This document shows, piece after piece, positions 7,528 through 16,222 of a DNA stretch of 27,295 bases. The DNA lies in the IMG/VR virus record IMGVR_UViG_3300025137_000228, positions 1 to 27,295 of that record. The stretch is one strand, 5' to 3'. The notes below the pieces were generated by a model. The model was given only the letters and a program-made list of their open reading frames with translations, did no database searches and had not been told where the DNA came from. Source of the DNA: a virus. How positions within the stretch are numbered: position 1 is the first letter of the stretch; the number at the start of each line of letters is the position of its first letter. A program made the position numbers and the translations under genes.

Positions 7528-7983
7528 GTGGCAGTACAAAAAGACGTGCCGTGGGCAGAGAAGACAATGATATCCCAGGAGCTTTCGAATCATCATAGAA
7601 TAATCCAAACGAATCAAGGGTTTAGTTTGGGACACAAAAATAACTTTATGAAGGACAATATTACTCGTGGTGTACGAGGTGAATTAATAGCTGCCGAGTG
7701 GTTAGTTGGCCAAGGAATATGGGCTTTTTTACCTCCTTCAGCTCAAGGTCCGGTAGATTTAATTGGGTTGGATAAGGACGGTAAAGTGTATTTGTTTGAT
7801 GTAAAAGTTTTAAACCGGAGAAAAGATGGAAGCAAAGTAGCCCGTGTTTTAAGCTCTCTTCAAAAAAAATTAGGCGTAAAACTTTTATATGTTGACCTAG
7901 ATTTTAAACAAGTTTTTATAGGCGGATCTCAAGGCCGTGATAAAAAAGGAATGGTTACAACTCAGATGTCTATAATAAAGTAA
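7528..7983 (+). CDS. PD-(D/E)XK endonuclease, Holliday-junction-resolvase-like
   Basis: The core from about residue 46 on has the layout of archaeal Hjc / PD-(D/E)XK-type nucleases: a helix RGVRGELIAAEWLV with Glu52, then GPVDLIG with Asp77, then VYLFDVKV with Asp91 and Lys93. Such enzymes cleave branched DNA, which phages need before packaging. The start is uncertain: GTG 7528 is the longest, ATG 7567 has a weak AGAGAAG, and ATG 7648 would begin just before the conserved helix. The gene is the last of the plus-strand early block, and a hairpin overlaps its stop codon. The catalytic pattern is visible; the exact substrate is inferred. Confidence 0.75.
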   Translation: MAVQKDVPWAEKTMISQELSNHHRIIQTNQGFSLGHKNNFMKDNITRGVRGELIAAEWLVGQGIWAFLPPSAQGPVDLIGLDKDGKVYLFDVKVLNRRKDGSKVARVLSSLQKKLGVKLLYVDLDFKQVFIGGSQGRDKKGMVTTQMSIIK

Positions 7984-8008
7984 TGCCCAACCTGGAGATC
8001 GGGCATTA
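7981..8008 (+). terminator. Hairpin that includes the resolvase stop codon
   Basis: TAATGCCC (7981-7988) pairs perfectly with GGGCATTA (8001-8008) around a 12-base loop. The stop codon is the first three bases of the stem. No T-tract follows, so it is at best a rho-dependent or 3'-end-stabilising element. The following 8009-8133 has no gene; it holds a short inverted repeat CGTGGA/TCCACG (8024 and 8080). Confidence 0.5.
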
Positions 8009-8133
8009 CAAGTGGCTGCAATCCGTGGAATGATACATGATAAGAGAGGAAGACATATATCTAAAGTAGAGTCCTACCATCCACGTACTACTAGATGTAG
8101 TGTATTCACCAGGTTTCGTCAACCAGTTGTATG

Positions 8134-8655
8134 TTATAACCATTTTAATTGAGTGTTTTTAGTGGGTTTTTTATCCCAGACCATCCAACAGAATGCCATT
8201 GTTCCTGAAGACGTGGGTTTATCTCCGTTTATCCACAAGGTAAGTCTTTTAGAAAAGACCCAAACCCTAGCCGGGGGGAAAGGATCAAAAAGCTCTTTCT
8301 TCCGGCTTTGTGATTCGAGAAAGGCTAACCTTAGAAACATAGCCACCTTATCATCTGATAATTCTAACGATCTTAATATAAATTCTTTAGCTAATTTAAA
8401 GGGTGGATTGGTTATTATATTGGGATATCTTTCATATTCCATCAAAAAATCGACCCCTCCTGTGCCATAACCCCTGTCTATAAGGTCATTACTCACCACT
8501 TGATGGCCGTGAGACATCAAAATTTTACTAATATGACCCTCTCCACACGCTGGTTCCAGTATTTTTCCTTTAAATTTCTCTACTTGCAGCAATGATTCGG
8601 TTGCCTCAGGAGGCGTTGGGTAGTAATCATCCTTATGACGAGCTATTTTTCCCAT
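8134..8655 (-). CDS. DNA methyltransferase, NPPF type (probable N6-adenine)
   Basis: This 173-residue class I SAM-dependent methyltransferase probably modifies adenine in DNA. Motif I is EPACGEG (residues 34-40), the acidic residue after strand 2 is Asp57 (SNDLID), and motif IV is NPPF (83-86), which marks amino-methyltransferases. The opening YYPTPPEATESLL and the ending TMAFCWMVWDK are typical of a compact phage family. ATG 8655 overlaps the upstream lipoprotein stop (TGATG); a TTG three bases earlier is less likely. It is the last gene of the minus-strand DNA-modification cassette. No target-recognition domain can be distinguished, so its site is unknown. It may be part of an anti-restriction system, which would be inference. 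Confidence 0.85.
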   Translation of the reverse strand: MGKIARHKDDYYPTPPEATESLLQVEKFKGKILEPACGEGHISKILMSHGHQVVSNDLIDRGYGTGGVDFLMEYERYPNIITNPPFKLAKEFILRSLELSDDKVAMFLRLAFLESQSRKKELFDPFPPARVWVFSKRLTLWINGDKPTSSGTMAFCWMVWDKKPTKNTQLKWL

Positions 8656-8819
8656 CAAAATGTTTTAATTTTAGGACATCCTAGCTCTTCTACTTGTAGA
8701 ATTTTAAATTGCCCTTCATTATCTATAATAGATCCAACATGAATTGGAGAACATGTTGAAGTTCCCATGGTTTGACACCCAGCTAATAACAAAACAAAAC
8801 TAATTATTATTATTTTCAT
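8655..8819 (-). CDS. Small lipoprotein (54 residues)
   Basis: The product starts MKIIIISFVLLLAGC, a charged residue followed by a hydrophobic stretch and a perfect lipobox (LLAGC, Cys15). It would be exported and lipidated. The mature part is about 40 residues with two further cysteines (Cys23 and Cys48) and no proline-rich stretch. The gene overlaps the methyltransferase subunit by 20 bases upstream and the next methyltransferase start downstream (TGATG). It could be an outer-membrane spanin or a surface-exclusion lipoprotein; lying inside a methyltransferase operon, neither is supported directly. Confidence 0.65.
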   Translation of the reverse strand: MKIIIISFVLLLAGCQTMGTSTCSPIHVGSIIDNEGQFKILQVEELGCPKIKTF

Positions 8820-9732
8820 CTTCAACCTCCTTTATACATTCAGCGATAACTGCTACGCATTGCGGCACAACAGCATTACCCATACACTTTAATCTATCTT
8901 TCCGGTTATTAACTTTTGAACCTACTCTAGGCATATCAGGTTCAATATCCCAGTAAGATACATTGGCGTGAACTTCGTCCTCTTCATCAATACTAGTGTG
9001 ATTAATTGGAAAACCCATTAACCATTCAACCCAAGATGGATTTAAAGTTTTAGGTGTATCGTCTAAAGATCTAATTTTATCAGGTAGTGAGTTAGATGCA
9101 GTCCTTCCTTTCTTTTTTAATGTTTCCGGTTTTCTTGCACCTTTCCAATCTCTTGCAGTTGGAGTGGGAAACATACACACAGCCTGTTCTAACTTTGATT
9201 TATAACCTTTTCTTTCTAACTGGCCTTCTACAGAGTGCATAGAATCATTCATTCCATTACTTGCGCGAGGCGTTGGCCACATTCTATTAGGCTGATCATC
9301 TAAGCTATCAGTAACTGCAGCAGTTAGGCTCCATCCATGTGTACCGTTAATCATAGAAGGACAAGGTTTTTCTGCGTAAGAAGATCGTCCTCCTCTATGT
9401 GTTGGCGTGGGCCACAACGAAGCATCTTTGTCTTTGATGGCGGGCTTTGACGGAGACAGCACCAAATACGAAAGTTTGGACTTTGTAGTTTTCATTTTCC
9501 AAGTCAGCGACCGTACGGGCGAGTCCCATCTCCATGTTAACAAACCCTTGCACATTTTCTCCAACGATCCATTTAGCCCGGGGCGTGAGGCTTTTAATAA
9601 CTCGTAACATTTCTGGCCAGAGATCTCGGTCATCTTCCGAGCCTTTTCTCTTTCCTGCTCCACTCCATGGTTGGCATGGGAATCCTCCGAGAACAATGTC
9701 AATGTTTCCAATTCTTGATCTTTCGTCTTCAT
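8800..9732 (-). CDS. C5-cytosine methyltransferase, C-terminal half (target recognition and motifs IX-X)
   Basis: The 310-residue product carries the parts of a DNA cytosine-5 methyltransferase that the neighbouring ORF lacks. The pattern WPTP appears twice (residues 107-110 and 152-155) and FPTP once (188-191). LNPSWVEWLMGFP (230-242) and GNAVVPQ (285-291, motif X) follow; these are the conserved features of phage C5 enzymes. I place the start at ATG 9732 because AAGGAG (9745-9740) lies exactly seven bases upstream, inside the N-terminal subunit gene; ATG 9753 has no such site. The first 113 residues are therefore encoded in a different frame of the same DNA as the N-terminal subunit (338 bases of overlap). 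The two products probably form one heterodimeric enzyme, as in M.EcoHK31I and M.AquI. A +1 frameshift that fuses them is the alternative. Confidence 0.8.
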   Translation of the reverse strand: MKTKDQELETLTLFSEDSHANHGVEQEREKARKMTEISGQKCYELLKASRPGLNGSLEKMCKGLLTWRWDSPVRSLTWKMKTTKSKLSYLVLSPSKPAIKDKDASLWPTPTHRGGRSSYAEKPCPSMINGTHGWSLTAAVTDSLDDQPNRMWPTPRASNGMNDSMHSVEGQLERKGYKSKLEQAVCMFPTPTARDWKGARKPETLKKKGRTASNSLPDKIRSLDDTPKTLNPSWVEWLMGFPINHTSIDEEDEVHANVSYWDIEPDMPRVGSKVNNRKDRLKCMGNAVVPQCVAVIAECIKEVEDENNNN

Positions 9733-9949
9733 ATCTAAACTCCTTAATATCATCGTATACTGGTACGTCTTTCCAATTCTTTTGTAAAACTTTTGTACAA
9801 TACGGATCTCTTTCTACAAATGCAGCACACTTATAATCTTTTCCATAACCCAGCTCCATGCCAAGAGACATTCCTCCGACACCAGCAAATAATTCAAGAC
9901 CTTTCATTCTTTTAGGCACTTTGATCGTTTGAGCTGTCTCGCACTGCAT
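9395..9949 (-). CDS. C5-cytosine methyltransferase, N-terminal catalytic half
   Basis: The 184-residue product has the SAM-binding motif LELFAGVGG (18-26), the catalytic GGFPCQPWSGAG (Cys92) and ENVQGF (131-136), with QRQRCF (172-177) near the end. These are motifs I, IV, VI and VIII of the DNA (cytosine-5) methyltransferase family. It stops at TAG 9395-9397, before any target recognition domain. The C-terminal motifs are in the overlapping ORF 8800-9732. ATG 9949 has AGGA seven bases upstream; the internal ATG 9907 (before KGLELFAG) is an alternative start. The last codons (VVAHANT) are encoded by the same bases that give SLWPTPT in the other frame. Its recognition site cannot be deduced. 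Confidence 0.9.
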   Translation of the reverse strand: MQCETAQTIKVPKRMKGLELFAGVGGMSLGMELGYGKDYKCAAFVERDPYCTKVLQKNWKDVPVYDDIKEFRYEDERSRIGNIDIVLGGFPCQPWSGAGKRKGSEDDRDLWPEMLRVIKSLTPRAKWIVGENVQGFVNMEMGLARTVADLENENYKVQTFVFGAVSVKARHQRQRCFVVAHANT

Positions 9950-10163
9950 TTTCAATTCCTGATTTTATTTTAATGTGTTCGCTATCAAGGATGTCTATTT
10001 CATCTTCATCTTTATCTTTAGTTAGATCTATCCAAGCTTCATTTACTAATTCATCAATCATCTTAATTTGTGTTTTTTGTGAGTTAGTTGCTAAGACTCT
10101 TAACCTAGCCAGTGTCTCAGTGTATATTCTTGCAGTCGAATAGTTTACAGTTTTTTCTTGCAT
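9912..10163 (-). CDS. Ribbon-helix-helix DNA-binding protein, probable cassette regulator
   Basis: The first 46 residues of this 83-residue protein fit a ribbon-helix-helix fold: a short strand (VNYSTARIY, residues 6-14), a helix (TETLARLRVLATNSQK) and a second helix (TQIKMIDELVNEAWIDL). Such proteins bind DNA palindromes as dimers. An acidic tail (residues 50-83) follows. GGAGG is six bases before the ATG. The gene is divergent from 10233, and between them stands a perfect 20-bp palindrome, the best candidate for its operator. It heads the methyltransferase cassette, so it may autoregulate it. The fold is judged from sequence pattern, not from a search. Confidence 0.7.
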   Translation of the reverse strand: MQEKTVNYSTARIYTETLARLRVLATNSQKTQIKMIDELVNEAWIDLTKDKDEDEIDILDSEHIKIKSGIENAVRDSSNDQSA

Positions 10164-10575: not shown

Positions 10576-11058
10576 ATGATTACAACAGAATATTTATTAT
10601 CTATTAAGGATGATAAATCTATTTTAGCAAACCTTTCAAATAAAGATCTGTTCGAACTTAAAGAACAGTTAGTAGGGGTTAGGAAATTATCAACAATAGT
10701 AGAAGATTATATAGACAGATGTTTAGACAGGACAATCGGTCAACAGCTGCAATCTGAACTGGATACAAGTAAGTTAGACTCTGGTTCTCATACTTTCGAT
10801 TATGAGACTGCCAAAGTCATCGCAAGAAAACCATCAACCATAAAATATGATGATGCTCAATTGCGAACGGCTTATAAAAATTTACTTGAAAAAGGTATTG
10901 ATAAGGAAACGCTAGACAATATTTTTAAGTTTAGCGTCCTATCCTCGAAGTACAACACTGCCTCAGAAACAATTCAACACGAGCTGCAAAAGTGTAGAAC
11001 TGTGACTATTGGAGAAGATTTAAAATACAAGGTTACTTTAAAGGGAGAAATATTATGA
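10576..11058 (+). CDS. Conserved-looking phage protein ahead of the Sak4-like ATPase
   Basis: This 160-residue protein is not recognised by domain. Its N-terminal third is helical (DLFELKEQLVGVRKLSTIVEDY), the centre has 'ETAKVIARKPSTIKYDDAQLRT', and the end has 'HELQKCRTVTIGEDLKYKVTLKG'. Proteins of this size often precede a RecA-like Sak4 ATPase in phage genomes. The start follows a good promoter and an AT-rich leader. Its stop overlaps the ATPase start (ATGA), so the two are translated together and may act together in recombination. There is no membrane segment. Confidence 0.7.
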   Translation: MITTEYLLSIKDDKSILANLSNKDLFELKEQLVGVRKLSTIVEDYIDRCLDRTIGQQLQSELDTSKLDSGSHTFDYETAKVIARKPSTIKYDDAQLRTAYKNLLEKGIDKETLDNIFKFSVLSSKYNTASETIQHELQKCRTVTIGEDLKYKVTLKGEIL

Positions 11059-11882
11059 AGTTAGTAACACCTGAAGAACGTCTAAATCAAAAAAGCGGTG
11101 TAAAAGCCGTAATAGCTGGTAGGCCTGGAGTTGGTAAAACAACTCTTCTCTTAGGATTAAACCCTAAGAAAACTGTTTTTATAGACTTAGAGGCCGGAGA
11201 TTTATCCGTTCAAGATTATAAAGGCTCAACCATTCAACCTGATACTTGGAATGATTGTAAAAATATTGCTGTATTAGCTGGCGGACCGAACACAGCGATT
11301 GTGTCAAAAGATCCAGCCAAACCAAAAGCATATTCTCAAGAACATTATGATATGTGTGTAAAGCATTTTCCGGATCAACATAAAGCATTACAAGAATGCG
11401 ATACAATATTTATTGACTCAATAACTGTTGCAGCAAGATTAGCTTTAATGCATTCCAGACAACTTCCAGAAAATTATACTAAGTCTGGAGCCATAGATTC
11501 TAGAAACGCATATGGGTCAATGGGTCGTGAAATGATGGAGTGGTTAATATTCTTTCAACACATAAGATTAAAGAATATTATTTTCTGTTGCATCTTAGAA
11601 GAAGGCCAAGATGAAATGGGAAGAGTTGAATATAAACTTCAGATGGAAGGTAAAAAATCAGCTCAAGAATTACCGGGAATTGTAGACCAAGTTATCATTT
11701 ATGATTTTGTTAATTCAGAAGATAAAGACGGCAACATGATACCTACTCGAACTTTTATTTGTAAGCCAGAGGGTCATCCATTTGCTAAAAGCCGAGCTAA
11801 AGGTGTAAGTGTTTATGAAACACCAGATCTAAATGCTCTTTTAAACAAACTTTCAAACAATCAAATAACAGGAGAAAAATAA
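11055..11882 (+). CDS. Sak4-like RecA-type ATPase (single-strand annealing)
   Basis: The 275-residue protein is a P-loop ATPase of the AAA_24 / Sak4 type that phages use for single-strand annealing and recombination. The Walker A motif is GRPGVGKTT (residues 22-30) and the Walker B is TIFIDS (117-122). Between them lies 'TVFIDLEAGDLSV' (40-52), a typical early strand of the family. The middle region (about 150-200) has the long basic 'FFQHIRLKNIIFC' stretch. It is coupled to the gene before (ATGA) and to the SSB-like gene after (TAATG). The order Sak4-SSB is common in phages. It should act with the SSB-like protein on replicating DNA. Confidence 0.8.
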   Translation: MKLVTPEERLNQKSGVKAVIAGRPGVGKTTLLLGLNPKKTVFIDLEAGDLSVQDYKGSTIQPDTWNDCKNIAVLAGGPNTAIVSKDPAKPKAYSQEHYDMCVKHFPDQHKALQECDTIFIDSITVAARLALMHSRQLPENYTKSGAIDSRNAYGSMGREMMEWLIFFQHIRLKNIIFCCILEEGQDEMGRVEYKLQMEGKKSAQELPGIVDQVIIYDFVNSEDKDGNMIPTRTFICKPEGHPFAKSRAKGVSVYETPDLNALLNKLSNNQITGEK

Positions 11883-13425: not shown

Positions 13426-14172
13426 GTGGTTGATTTAAACGAAAAAGTTTTTGATGGCGATGTATCAGATATTATTAATGGATACATTGATAAAAGTTTG
13501 CAAGAAGCAAACAGACAAGAAGTCAGAAGAAGTTACATAGGTGGGTCCAGTATAGGAGATCCCTGTAAAAGAAAATTACAATATAGATTATTGGCTATAA
13601 AACCTGACAAAGAGTTTGAGGGAAAGACTTTAAGGATATTTGGGGCTGGTCATGCTTATGAAGACATGGCTATAGGATGGTTAACGAGAGGTGGTTTTGA
13701 GTTAAGAACAGTAGATCGTCATGGAAGGCAGTTTGGATTTAGTCATGCGGACGATAGAATAAAAGGTCATATAGACGGCCTTGTTACTAAAAGTCCTTTA
13801 GATGAAACGTATCCATATTTATGGGAGTGCAAGTCCGCTAATGATGCTACTTGGAAAAAATATAAAAAAAATGGTGTAGAAAAAACGAATAAGATTTATT
13901 ATGCACAGATAGTGGTTTACCAATACTTTATGAACCTAACAAAGCTTCCGGCTTTATTTACGGTCGTAAACAAAAATACGCAAGAGATATACCATGAGAG
14001 AGTACCTTTTGATTCAAAGTTTGCACAAGAATGCACGGACAAAGCCGCTATGATTGTTGCTGCAACTGATAATAAAGAATTAATGCCAAGAGTTGCTTAT
14101 GAGAGAGATCATTTTTCCTGTCGTTTTTGTGAGTTTAGTACAAGATGTTGGGAAGTAGATGGAGAAGTTTGA
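13426..14172 (+). CDS. Fe-S PD-(D/E)XK exonuclease, Cas4/AddB-like
   Basis: The 248-residue protein starts with GTG (AGGAG eight bases upstream). The nuclease motif is clear: Asp117 in GHIDG, then Glu134-Cys-Lys136 in WECKS and Gln161 in YYAQI. One cysteine near the N-terminus (Cys47, GDPCKRKL) and three near the C-terminus (Cys232, Cys235, Cys241 in CRFCEFSTRC) are placed like the four iron-sulfur ligands of Cas4 and AddB nucleases. His77 and Glu79 in GHAYED fit the family's additional acidic site. It probably resects DNA ends with 5' or 3' polarity for Sak4-type annealing. It overlaps the primase-helicase gene by 14 bases. Confidence 0.85.
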   Translation: MVDLNEKVFDGDVSDIINGYIDKSLQEANRQEVRRSYIGGSSIGDPCKRKLQYRLLAIKPDKEFEGKTLRIFGAGHAYEDMAIGWLTRGGFELRTVDRHGRQFGFSHADDRIKGHIDGLVTKSPLDETYPYLWECKSANDATWKKYKKNGVEKTNKIYYAQIVVYQYFMNLTKLPALFTVVNKNTQEIYHERVPFDSKFAQECTDKAAMIVAATDNKELMPRVAYERDHFSCRFCEFSTRCWEVDGEV

Positions 14173-16222
14173 TTCTATAGACATAGATTCTTTTAAGCTT
14201 AAATGCTCTACAAGACTTTCTGACATATTTTTTCACTTATTTCCCTCTGGAAGAATTAGAGGTAAAGAATTTATAATAGGTGACTTAAATGGTAAGCCTG
14301 GAGACTCTGTTTCGTTTAGCTTAGATAGTTCTAAGCTTGGAGTTGGCGGAGAGTTTAATGGTATGGGCGGCCATAAGATGTTTTCTGATTTTATAGATGT
14401 TTGGAAGCATAAAAAAGGCGTAGATTTTATAACAGCAGTAGAAGATATAAGTAACTTTATAGGAAGTCCTATAGAGAAAAGACCTGTTGTTGCTGCATCA
14501 GAGCCAATAAGAAATGTAGATCAAGACAAGGGCAAGGTCGTAGCAGAGCATACATACACCGATCCAAATGGAAATTTAATATGCACCATTGTTAGAAAAC
14601 AATTTAATGACGGAAAAAAAAGTTTTTTACCTAGACTTGCAAGTGGTGATTTTAAAATGCCACTCGTCAGACCTCTTTATAATTTAGTTGATGTATCTAC
14701 TTCTGATACTGTAATTATTGTAGAGGGCGAAAAATGTGCTGATGCATTAAAAACTATGGGGTACGTTGCAACATCTGCTATGGGTGGGTCAGGCGCTCCT
14801 TTAGAAAAAACTGATTGGTCATCCTTACAAAATAAAGAAATAACAATTTGGCCAGATAACGATGAACCTGGTTTTCATTATGCAGAATCTTTAGCCTCCT
14901 ATCTTATACCTATTTGTAGATCAGTAAGAGTGCTTCAACCATCTAAAGGAAAACCAAAAGGCTGGGATGTAGCTGATGCAGTAGCAGAAAATTTTAATAT
15001 TAATAAATTTTTATCAATAGAAGATTCAAATAGAAAAATTATTAATCTTATAGATTCTAGTTTATCTGCTTCTCGATACGCTCAAGGAAAATCACCACCT
15101 TATCAATACTTGGTAGAAGAAACATTACCAAAAGGAGTTGCTGGCGTTCTTGCTGCAACAGGAGACACCGGTAAAGGTCTAATAACATTAGACATGGGTC
15201 TAAAGTTAGCTTACGGAACGGTTGGCAAAGATAAAGTTTTTGATAGCCATATAACAGAAAATGGTTCTGTTGTAATTCTTACAGCGGAAGATGAAGCTGA
15301 TGAAATACATAGGCGTGTAGAGTCATTAGATAGAGATGGATATAGATTTAGGGAAACAGGTCATGACTTAAAAATAATTCCTTTTCCTAATTATGGCGGA
15401 ACAGTTCCAATTGTTACGGTAGAAAAAGGTAGGCCAACTATTACACCGGAATGGCAAAACATATGTGACCAAATAAAAAAAATTGAAGGGTTGGTAATGG
15501 TTGTTGTAGATCCACTTAGCTCTTTTATATATGCAGATGTTAATGCTGATCCAGCTATGGGTAGTTTTGTTACAGGATATTTTGCAAGTCTTGCTACTGA
15601 AACAAATGCTACATGGCTTCTTATTCATCATATGGCAAAAGTAGATATTAAAAATCCTGTTACAACACCGGAGCATGCACGTAATTTAATTAGAGGTACA
15701 TCTGCCATTGTTGACGGATTAAGATTTGCTATGGCTTTATGGACTCCCCCAGAAGGAGAGATAAGATATATTTGTAAAAGTTTAAACATAGAATTTAAAA
15801 GAAACAAAGTGGCTCACGGTGCTGTTGTTAAAAGTAATGGCCCAGCTAATAGAGAAATACGAACTTTTTTAAGAAATCCAAATAATGGTTTATTGGAAGG
15901 ATGCACAAGTGAACTTGGATTGGTTCGTCACGGTACAGAACTTGATTTAGAGGAACTTGTTTCGTGCATCAAACATGCAGCTAGAGATGGAAAGCCATTT
16001 ACTCAAACAGGTAGGGCAAACGGCATCGCTTATCATAAAGAAAGGCTTACAGACAGGTTCCATGACAGAGGTATAAATAATTTACAAGAAATGGTTCAAA
16101 CGCTTATTGATCAAGGAAGAATTGTAAAGGCTACAGCCGGAGGATCTAAAAGTAAAAAATGGTTAGATGTTCCTGGTGGTCCTTTTGCTGAAGGTGATGG
16201 AGAGTTTACTACAGGTTCTTAA
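14159..16222 (+). CDS. Primase-helicase: TOPRIM domain fused to RepA-like ATPase
   Basis: This 687-residue protein appears to do priming and unwinding in one chain. The N-terminal part (about 1-105) resembles a primase zinc-binding-type fold without the cysteines (GGEFNGMGG, then FSDFIDVWKHKKGVDF). The TOPRIM domain follows: VEGEK with Glu190, then WPDNDEPG with Asp233 and Asp235. From about 310 a RecA/RepA-like ATPase (AAA_25 type) begins, with ATGDTGKG (333-340), VVVDPLSSF (448-456) and IHHMAK (489-494). The P-loop ends in Gly-Leu where Ser/Thr is usual. The C-terminus may hold a winged helix (from about 590). It is the last plus-strand gene and meets a minus-strand gene head on. Confidence 0.85.
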   Translation: MEKFDSIDIDSFKLKCSTRLSDIFFHLFPSGRIRGKEFIIGDLNGKPGDSVSFSLDSSKLGVGGEFNGMGGHKMFSDFIDVWKHKKGVDFITAVEDISNFIGSPIEKRPVVAASEPIRNVDQDKGKVVAEHTYTDPNGNLICTIVRKQFNDGKKSFLPRLASGDFKMPLVRPLYNLVDVSTSDTVIIVEGEKCADALKTMGYVATSAMGGSGAPLEKTDWSSLQNKEITIWPDNDEPGFHYAESLASYLIPICRSVRVLQPSKGKPKGWDVADAVAENFNINKFLSIEDSNRKIINLIDSSLSASRYAQGKSPPYQYLVEETLPKGVAGVLAATGDTGKGLITLDMGLKLAYGTVGKDKVFDSHITENGSVVILTAEDEADEIHRRVESLDRDGYRFRETGHDLKIIPFPNYGGTVPIVTVEKGRPTITPEWQNICDQIKKIEGLVMVVVDPLSSFIYADVNADPAMGSFVTGYFASLATETNATWLLIHHMAKVDIKNPVTTPEHARNLIRGTSAIVDGLRFAMALWTPPEGEIRYICKSLNIEFKRNKVAHGAVVKSNGPANREIRTFLRNPNNGLLEGCTSELGLVRHGTELDLEELVSCIKHAARDGKPFTQTGRANGIAYHKERLTDRFHDRGINNLQEMVQTLIDQGRIVKATAGGSKSKKWLDVPGGPFAEGDGEFTTGS

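Follow-up and report, generated by a model that had tools for sequence, protein, structure and literature searches.

A minus-strand locus in a viral DNA sequence of 27,295 nt (hereafter the window, meaning this whole stretch) encodes the two halves of a cytosine-5 (C5) methyltransferase in overlapping reading frames. On the basis of the sequence comparisons below, we consider it very likely that the locus specifies a two-subunit DNA cytosine-5 methyltransferase, in which a separately initiated beta chain assembles with an alpha chain and which most likely has an anti-restriction role. The alpha gene (9395..9949, minus strand; 184 aa), which carries motifs I-VIII of the catalytic half, runs from an ATG at 9949 to a stop at 9395, just past motif VIII. 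The beta gene (8800..9732, minus strand; 310 aa) runs from an ATG at 9732 to a stop at 8800 in the +1 frame relative to alpha, and comprises an N-terminal domain, an array of recognition modules and motifs IX and X. The two genes share 338 nt (9395..9732, minus strand), a dual-coded segment constrained in both frames. A Shine-Dalgarno site for beta, AAGGAG (9740..9745, minus strand), lies 7 nt upstream of ATG 9732 inside alpha, and one set of bases within the overlap is read as VVAHAN in alpha and as WPTPT in beta. On re-reading the sequence, we found the coordinates, frames, motifs, overlap and Shine-Dalgarno site as an earlier sequence-only reading of this DNA had described them.

Alpha matched PF00145 (E = 6e-37) over profile positions 1-163 of 324 and phrog_363 (E = 1.5e-54), and it aligned with residues 12-173 of M.HhaI (E = 1e-13). 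All four motifs previously assigned to this ORF were located there on the minus strand: motif I, assigned to the AdoMet-binding sequence FAGVGG (9872..9889); motif IV, FPCQPWS, with the catalytic Cys (9662..9682), which overlaps LFSEDSHAN of beta; motif VI, GENV (9551..9562); and motif VIII, QRQR (9425..9436). Alpha therefore contains the full PF00145-type set of motif I, motif IV (PCQ), motif VI (ENV) and motif VIII (QxRxR).

Beta matched phrog_1008 (E = 1.4e-31), and the overlap segment alone, read in the beta frame, still matched this family (E = 4e-16). Searches of Pfam and NCBIfam returned no match to beta, and a profile search matched no solved structure. Beta holds three WPTP-type motifs followed by LNPSWVEWLMGFP (9007..9045, minus strand), which is motif IX, and GNAVVPQ (8860..8880, minus strand), which is motif X. 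Within motif IX, residues N231, P232, W234, V235, E236, L238, M239, G240 and P242 are invariant or nearly so among beta relatives. Beta thus shows the arrangement that marks this part of a C5 methyltransferase, namely a recognition region followed by motifs IX and X, and by motif content the enzyme is divided into I-VIII in alpha and IX-X in beta. The beta N-terminal domain (9448..9669, minus strand) is wholly overprinted on alpha and is predicted to form a helix at residues 22-49, a second helix at 56-66 and a hairpin at 75-95. Its AF2 model had a pLDDT of about 75-85 at residues 31-90 (pTM 0.48) and no fold match in the PDB; the model of full-length beta was of low confidence (pLDDT 60.7, pTM 0.25) and gave no PDB match with Foldseek. 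The domain was found only as an overprint of the alpha motif IV-VIII segment.

We gathered relatives by a beta search and, separately, by an alpha-only search; many are metagenomic contigs, and the non-redundant set comprised 81 sequences (<90% identity). Across 165 alpha-matched loci, the window included, the +1 frame held a long ORF (median about 245 aa, minimum 130), and the +2 frame was usually short (median about 44). Under synonymous codon shuffling, the +1 frame was open in 74 of 81 relatives against 7.5 expected, and the +2 frame in none of the 81 against 0.26 expected. In the window itself, the +1 frame was open in 1.7% of shuffles in which the alpha protein was held fixed and its own codons were shuffled. 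Among distant pairs, codon identity at conserved alpha residues followed the codon-usage expectation until about residue 80 and exceeded it from residue 81 onward (0.38-0.68 vs 0.28-0.42; for residues 81-88, 0.66 vs 0.35), and this onset of synonymous constraint in alpha coincides with the start of beta. In 60 independent close pairs, third-position differences per site fell from 0.292 outside the overlap to 0.140 within it (p = 3e-20), with positions 1 and 2 hardly altered. The suppressed position, alpha 3, corresponds to beta 2, whereas alpha 1, corresponding to beta 3, was unsuppressed. Between the window and its relative L085, 32 of 62 third positions had changed before the overlap and 25 of 108 inside it. 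The earlier proposal that the overlap is constrained in both frames was thereby borne out, both by the excess of open +1 frames and by the halving of third-position change, and codon-level conservation of the second frame across the overlap was strong.

All classified relatives were dual-coded. A check for clean single-frame relatives found none: the beta N-terminal domain profile matched the +1 ORF at 230 of 230 viral and genome loci from many phyla. The sequence-only reading had missed two features that emerged from these relatives, namely that most of them nest beta inside alpha and that beta has a modular recognition array. In the nested class (67/81), alpha continues as far as motif X and encloses most or all of beta, which carries the recognition region and motif IX. 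In eight of the 81, including the window, alpha is short and motif X is found in beta (the betaX class); the other six are cut by contig ends or have an architecture that could not be assigned. A genome scan yielded 80 loci, nearly all nested, from Bacillota, Pseudomonadota, Bacteroidota, Planctomycetota, Spirochaetota, Chloroflexota, Verrucomicrobiota and other phyla. On an unrooted tree of the alpha core, the nested/betaX label needs six changes, at least four of which are forced by well-supported branches, and the window falls with L002, L085 and L087 (starred support) in a four-member betaX clade surrounded by nested lineages. The nested majority and the scatter of betaX suggest that betaX arose repeatedly from nested, with the unrooted tree leaving the direction unproven.

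Several loci stood apart in other respects. L131 and L218 carry motifs I-VIII and IX in one frame and motif X in another, and are indel variants, probably frameshift mutants or sequence errors. The alphas of L234 and L243 have a classical Dcm-like motif IV context (PCQDxSLAG...ERSGLW or similar), and each is accompanied by a +1 beta that has WPTP modules, motif IX and a diverged N-terminal part. One Roseovarius assembly contains five identical copies of a nested locus (L169-L173) in a single chromosome, which reflect either a repeated prophage or an assembly effect.

For the nested relatives, we compared codon positions from motif VIII to the end of beta. Change at beta position 3 was 0.125, as against 0.037 at position 1 and 0.041 at position 2 (p = 2e-32); beta position 3 thus varies about three times as much as the other two, and beta is therefore the constrained protein here, indicating that the recognition region is coded by beta. 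The nested alpha frame was stop-free over the recognition region in 67 of 67 loci against 3.9 expected to be open from the beta proteins, a count that is partly built in, since the nested class is defined partly by an alpha open to motif X; its strength lies in the small size of the other class, with only eight loci. Over this region, nested alpha is merely kept free of stops, and its motif X shows the ordinary alpha-frame pattern (0.121, 0.087, 0.323). In the window, the alpha frame over the recognition region contains 15 stops against 15.0 expected; the open-frame constraint on alpha over this region is gone in the betaX class.

A second in-frame ATG is available to beta at 9753. Comparison within the window's clade indicates that ATG 9732, not 9753, is the conserved start, kept with (A)AGGA-type sites: the sites are AAGGAG in L002, AGGGAA in L085 and AAGGAA in L087. 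More widely, a Shine-Dalgarno match of at least 4 nt was present at some candidate beta start in 52 of 81 relatives, a count that is poorly controlled and uninformative as a general test, because sites deeper in beta score equally often. The site is clear in the window's clade but not in all nested relatives.

The sequence-only reading had offered either a heterodimer or a +1 frameshift product. In the latter case, a programmed +1 shift near the end of alpha, at VVAHAN/WPTPT, would yield a single chain and the internal beta start would be unused. The two frames do meet at the same bases there, and an artificial +1 shift at this point gives one open frame of 368 codons with motifs I-X in order. 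However, constraint is present from the beta start onward, some 100 codons upstream of the first point at which a shift would be useful, and the part upstream of the shift has a protein-family signal of its own. The conservation of the beta ATG and its AGGA-type site in the clade is likewise at odds with an unused start, and in nested relatives a second, reverse shift would be required to reach motif X. A frameshift product is unlikely because the first 105 residues of beta, which the overlap preserves, would be functionless; the overlap gains nothing from such a product, and two separately initiated polypeptides therefore fit best. We accordingly regard frameshifting as very improbable, and, of the two earlier options, the heterodimeric C5 methyltransferase made from overlapping frames stands as the reading that best fits the motif split and the dual-frame constraint.

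We assign a marginally smaller probability still to the idea that only the part of beta from the WPTP region onward is genuine, with the overlap constraint reflecting an RNA structure or nucleotide signal and the N-terminal domain being a shadow of alpha. Conservation of alpha does dictate part of the beta sequence, and in distant pairs identity in the +2 frame was likewise raised (0.338 vs 0.243), which follows from codons being shared. Given this rise in +2, the identity of beta relative to alpha-preserving recoding is weak evidence, and the case therefore rests on stop avoidance and codon-position rates. On both counts, a shadow fits poorly: stops are avoided in the +1 frame but not in +2, and suppression falls at alpha 3 (beta 2) with none at alpha 1 (beta 3). 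The recurrence of the N-terminal domain in every +1 ORF across phyla and the two helices and hairpin of its AF2 model also argue against this idea. Taken together, these comparisons indicate that both frames are protein-coding and under selection. That a recent frameshift, pseudogene formation or a sequencing error split a single ancestral gene in this contig, as the indels of L131 and L218 might recall, has a negligible probability and is refuted by conserved relatives with the same split, which recurs on the separate contigs of L081, L002, L085 and L087, the last three grouping with the window on the tree.

Cutting beta at the WPTP-type motifs delimited 1-7 modules per beta, of about 36 residues each (interquartile 28-40), and the same module families occurred at differing positions in very different betas. 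The array of the window is F4-F8-F0, all on the minus strand: module 1 (family F4; 9280..9402) follows the first WPTP, and modules 2 (F8; 9172..9267) and 3 (F0; 9046..9159) come after it. F0, with the pattern ARDxKGARKPETL...NSLPD, is present in 90 loci. In L081, whose alpha is identical to that of the window, the array is F4-F8-F0-F9, the F9 module being a 111-bp in-frame insertion after F0 with flanks 93-99% identical; in L085 the array is F4-F2-F40-F0-F17. Among 36 pairs whose alphas share at least 97% identity, 25 had different arrays, and these comparisons indicate module turnover in beta. The modules may be recognition domains whose exchange or addition alters specificity, with one module possibly conferring one specificity. 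The beta of L002 (L002:1966-3588) is 541 aa long with extra modules, and a long insert between its modules looks like a DNA-binding domain.

We propose that one ribosome would make alpha, while another would start at the internal site and make beta. Alpha would supply AdoMet binding and catalysis through motifs I-VIII, and beta its N-terminal domain, the three-module target-recognition array and motifs IX and X. The two chains may then assemble into a complete C5 methyltransferase, with the N-terminal domain presumably docking beta onto alpha; heterodimer formation and methyltransferase activity are both inferred from sequence. The enzyme would most likely methylate phage DNA so that host restriction fails, and exchanging modules in the beta array would redirect methylation to other sites and leave the catalytic half untouched. 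As to origin, a single-chain enzyme may have shifted frame after motif VIII, and beta may have gained its N-terminal domain by overprinting, with motif X carried in either frame. A broader picture, which we hold to be about as likely true as false, is that of a widespread, mostly unannotated family in which the overprinted domain is a subunit adaptor for plug-in modules, phages swap modules to re-programme or widen specificity, and the placement of motif X in beta frees the array from double coding.

Plus-strand genes flank a minus-strand cluster of the window (7980-10163) that includes the methyltransferase genes. The cluster also contains a small protein of ribbon-helix-helix appearance (9912-10163, minus strand), a short lipoprotein with weak Cor-like similarity that overlaps the end of beta (8655-8825, minus strand) and a phrog_799 DNA methyltransferase (8134-8658, minus strand), after which comes a terminator-like stem of 13 pairs (8009-7980). 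On the plus strand are an AAA_24-type ATPase (11055-11882; PF13479, E = 1e-28) and, downstream of it, replication-type genes such as a 687-aa ORF (14159-16222) judged by eye to be primase-helicase-like.

Paenibacillus phage Sitara has beta listed as a hypothetical "g59 internal gene"; a single CDS stands at the site in a Paenibacillus polymyxa plasmid according to the PLSDB gene table, which is incomplete, and in the deposited annotation of Lacticaseibacillus phage R9.1. Some annotations of such loci keep alpha alone, in which case the record may lack the other half of the enzyme. The literature that we searched contained no paper describing this family, nor nested or overlapping cytosine methyltransferases in phages. 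Two-polypeptide C5 methyltransferases were previously known from single restriction-modification enzymes; here, selection acting across hundreds of bases shows the dual coding, both in phages and in bacteria of many phyla. The motif X frame switch with its release of constraint offers a natural experiment on overlapping genes, and the modular array of beta lends itself to direct tests of how methylation specificity changes in phages. Split methyltransferases of this type also serve as targeted-methylation tools (PMC3439449).

Both M.AquI and M.EcoHK31I are C5 methyltransferases of two polypeptides (PMC3404938), and we compared the window with them by description. The larger subunit of M.AquI has motifs I-VIII, and the smaller has motifs IX-X and the recognition sequence (PMC3404938), a division that the window shares. 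The larger M.AquI subunit also has part of the variable region (PMC3404938), whereas alpha of the window ends at motif VIII and the whole recognition array is in beta. M.EcoHK31I likewise has motif IX in the smaller of its polypeptides, and it divides its motifs as the nested relatives do (I-VIII and X in alpha, IX in beta). Motif X in the large subunit with only IX in the small one was found in 67 of 81 non-redundant viral loci and in almost every one of the 80 genome loci; the window differs in having motif X in beta. The recognition domain of M.EcoHK31I has been predicted to lie in the larger subunit (PMC3404938), whereas selection places the recognition region of the nested relatives in the smaller one; if M.EcoHK31I belongs to this family, the placement of its recognition domain deserves another look. 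Among the PHROGs "DNA methyltransferase" families, alpha corresponds to phrog_363 and beta, overprinted part included, to phrog_1008, but the entries do not mark the two as overlapping halves of one enzyme. The Bacillus phages SPR, phi3T and rho11 have multispecific single-chain C5 methyltransferases. As the window may also do, these bring together in a single enzyme a number of interchangeable recognition modules, each a few dozen residues long, whereas in the window a separate polypeptide carries the array and WPTP motifs bound its modules.
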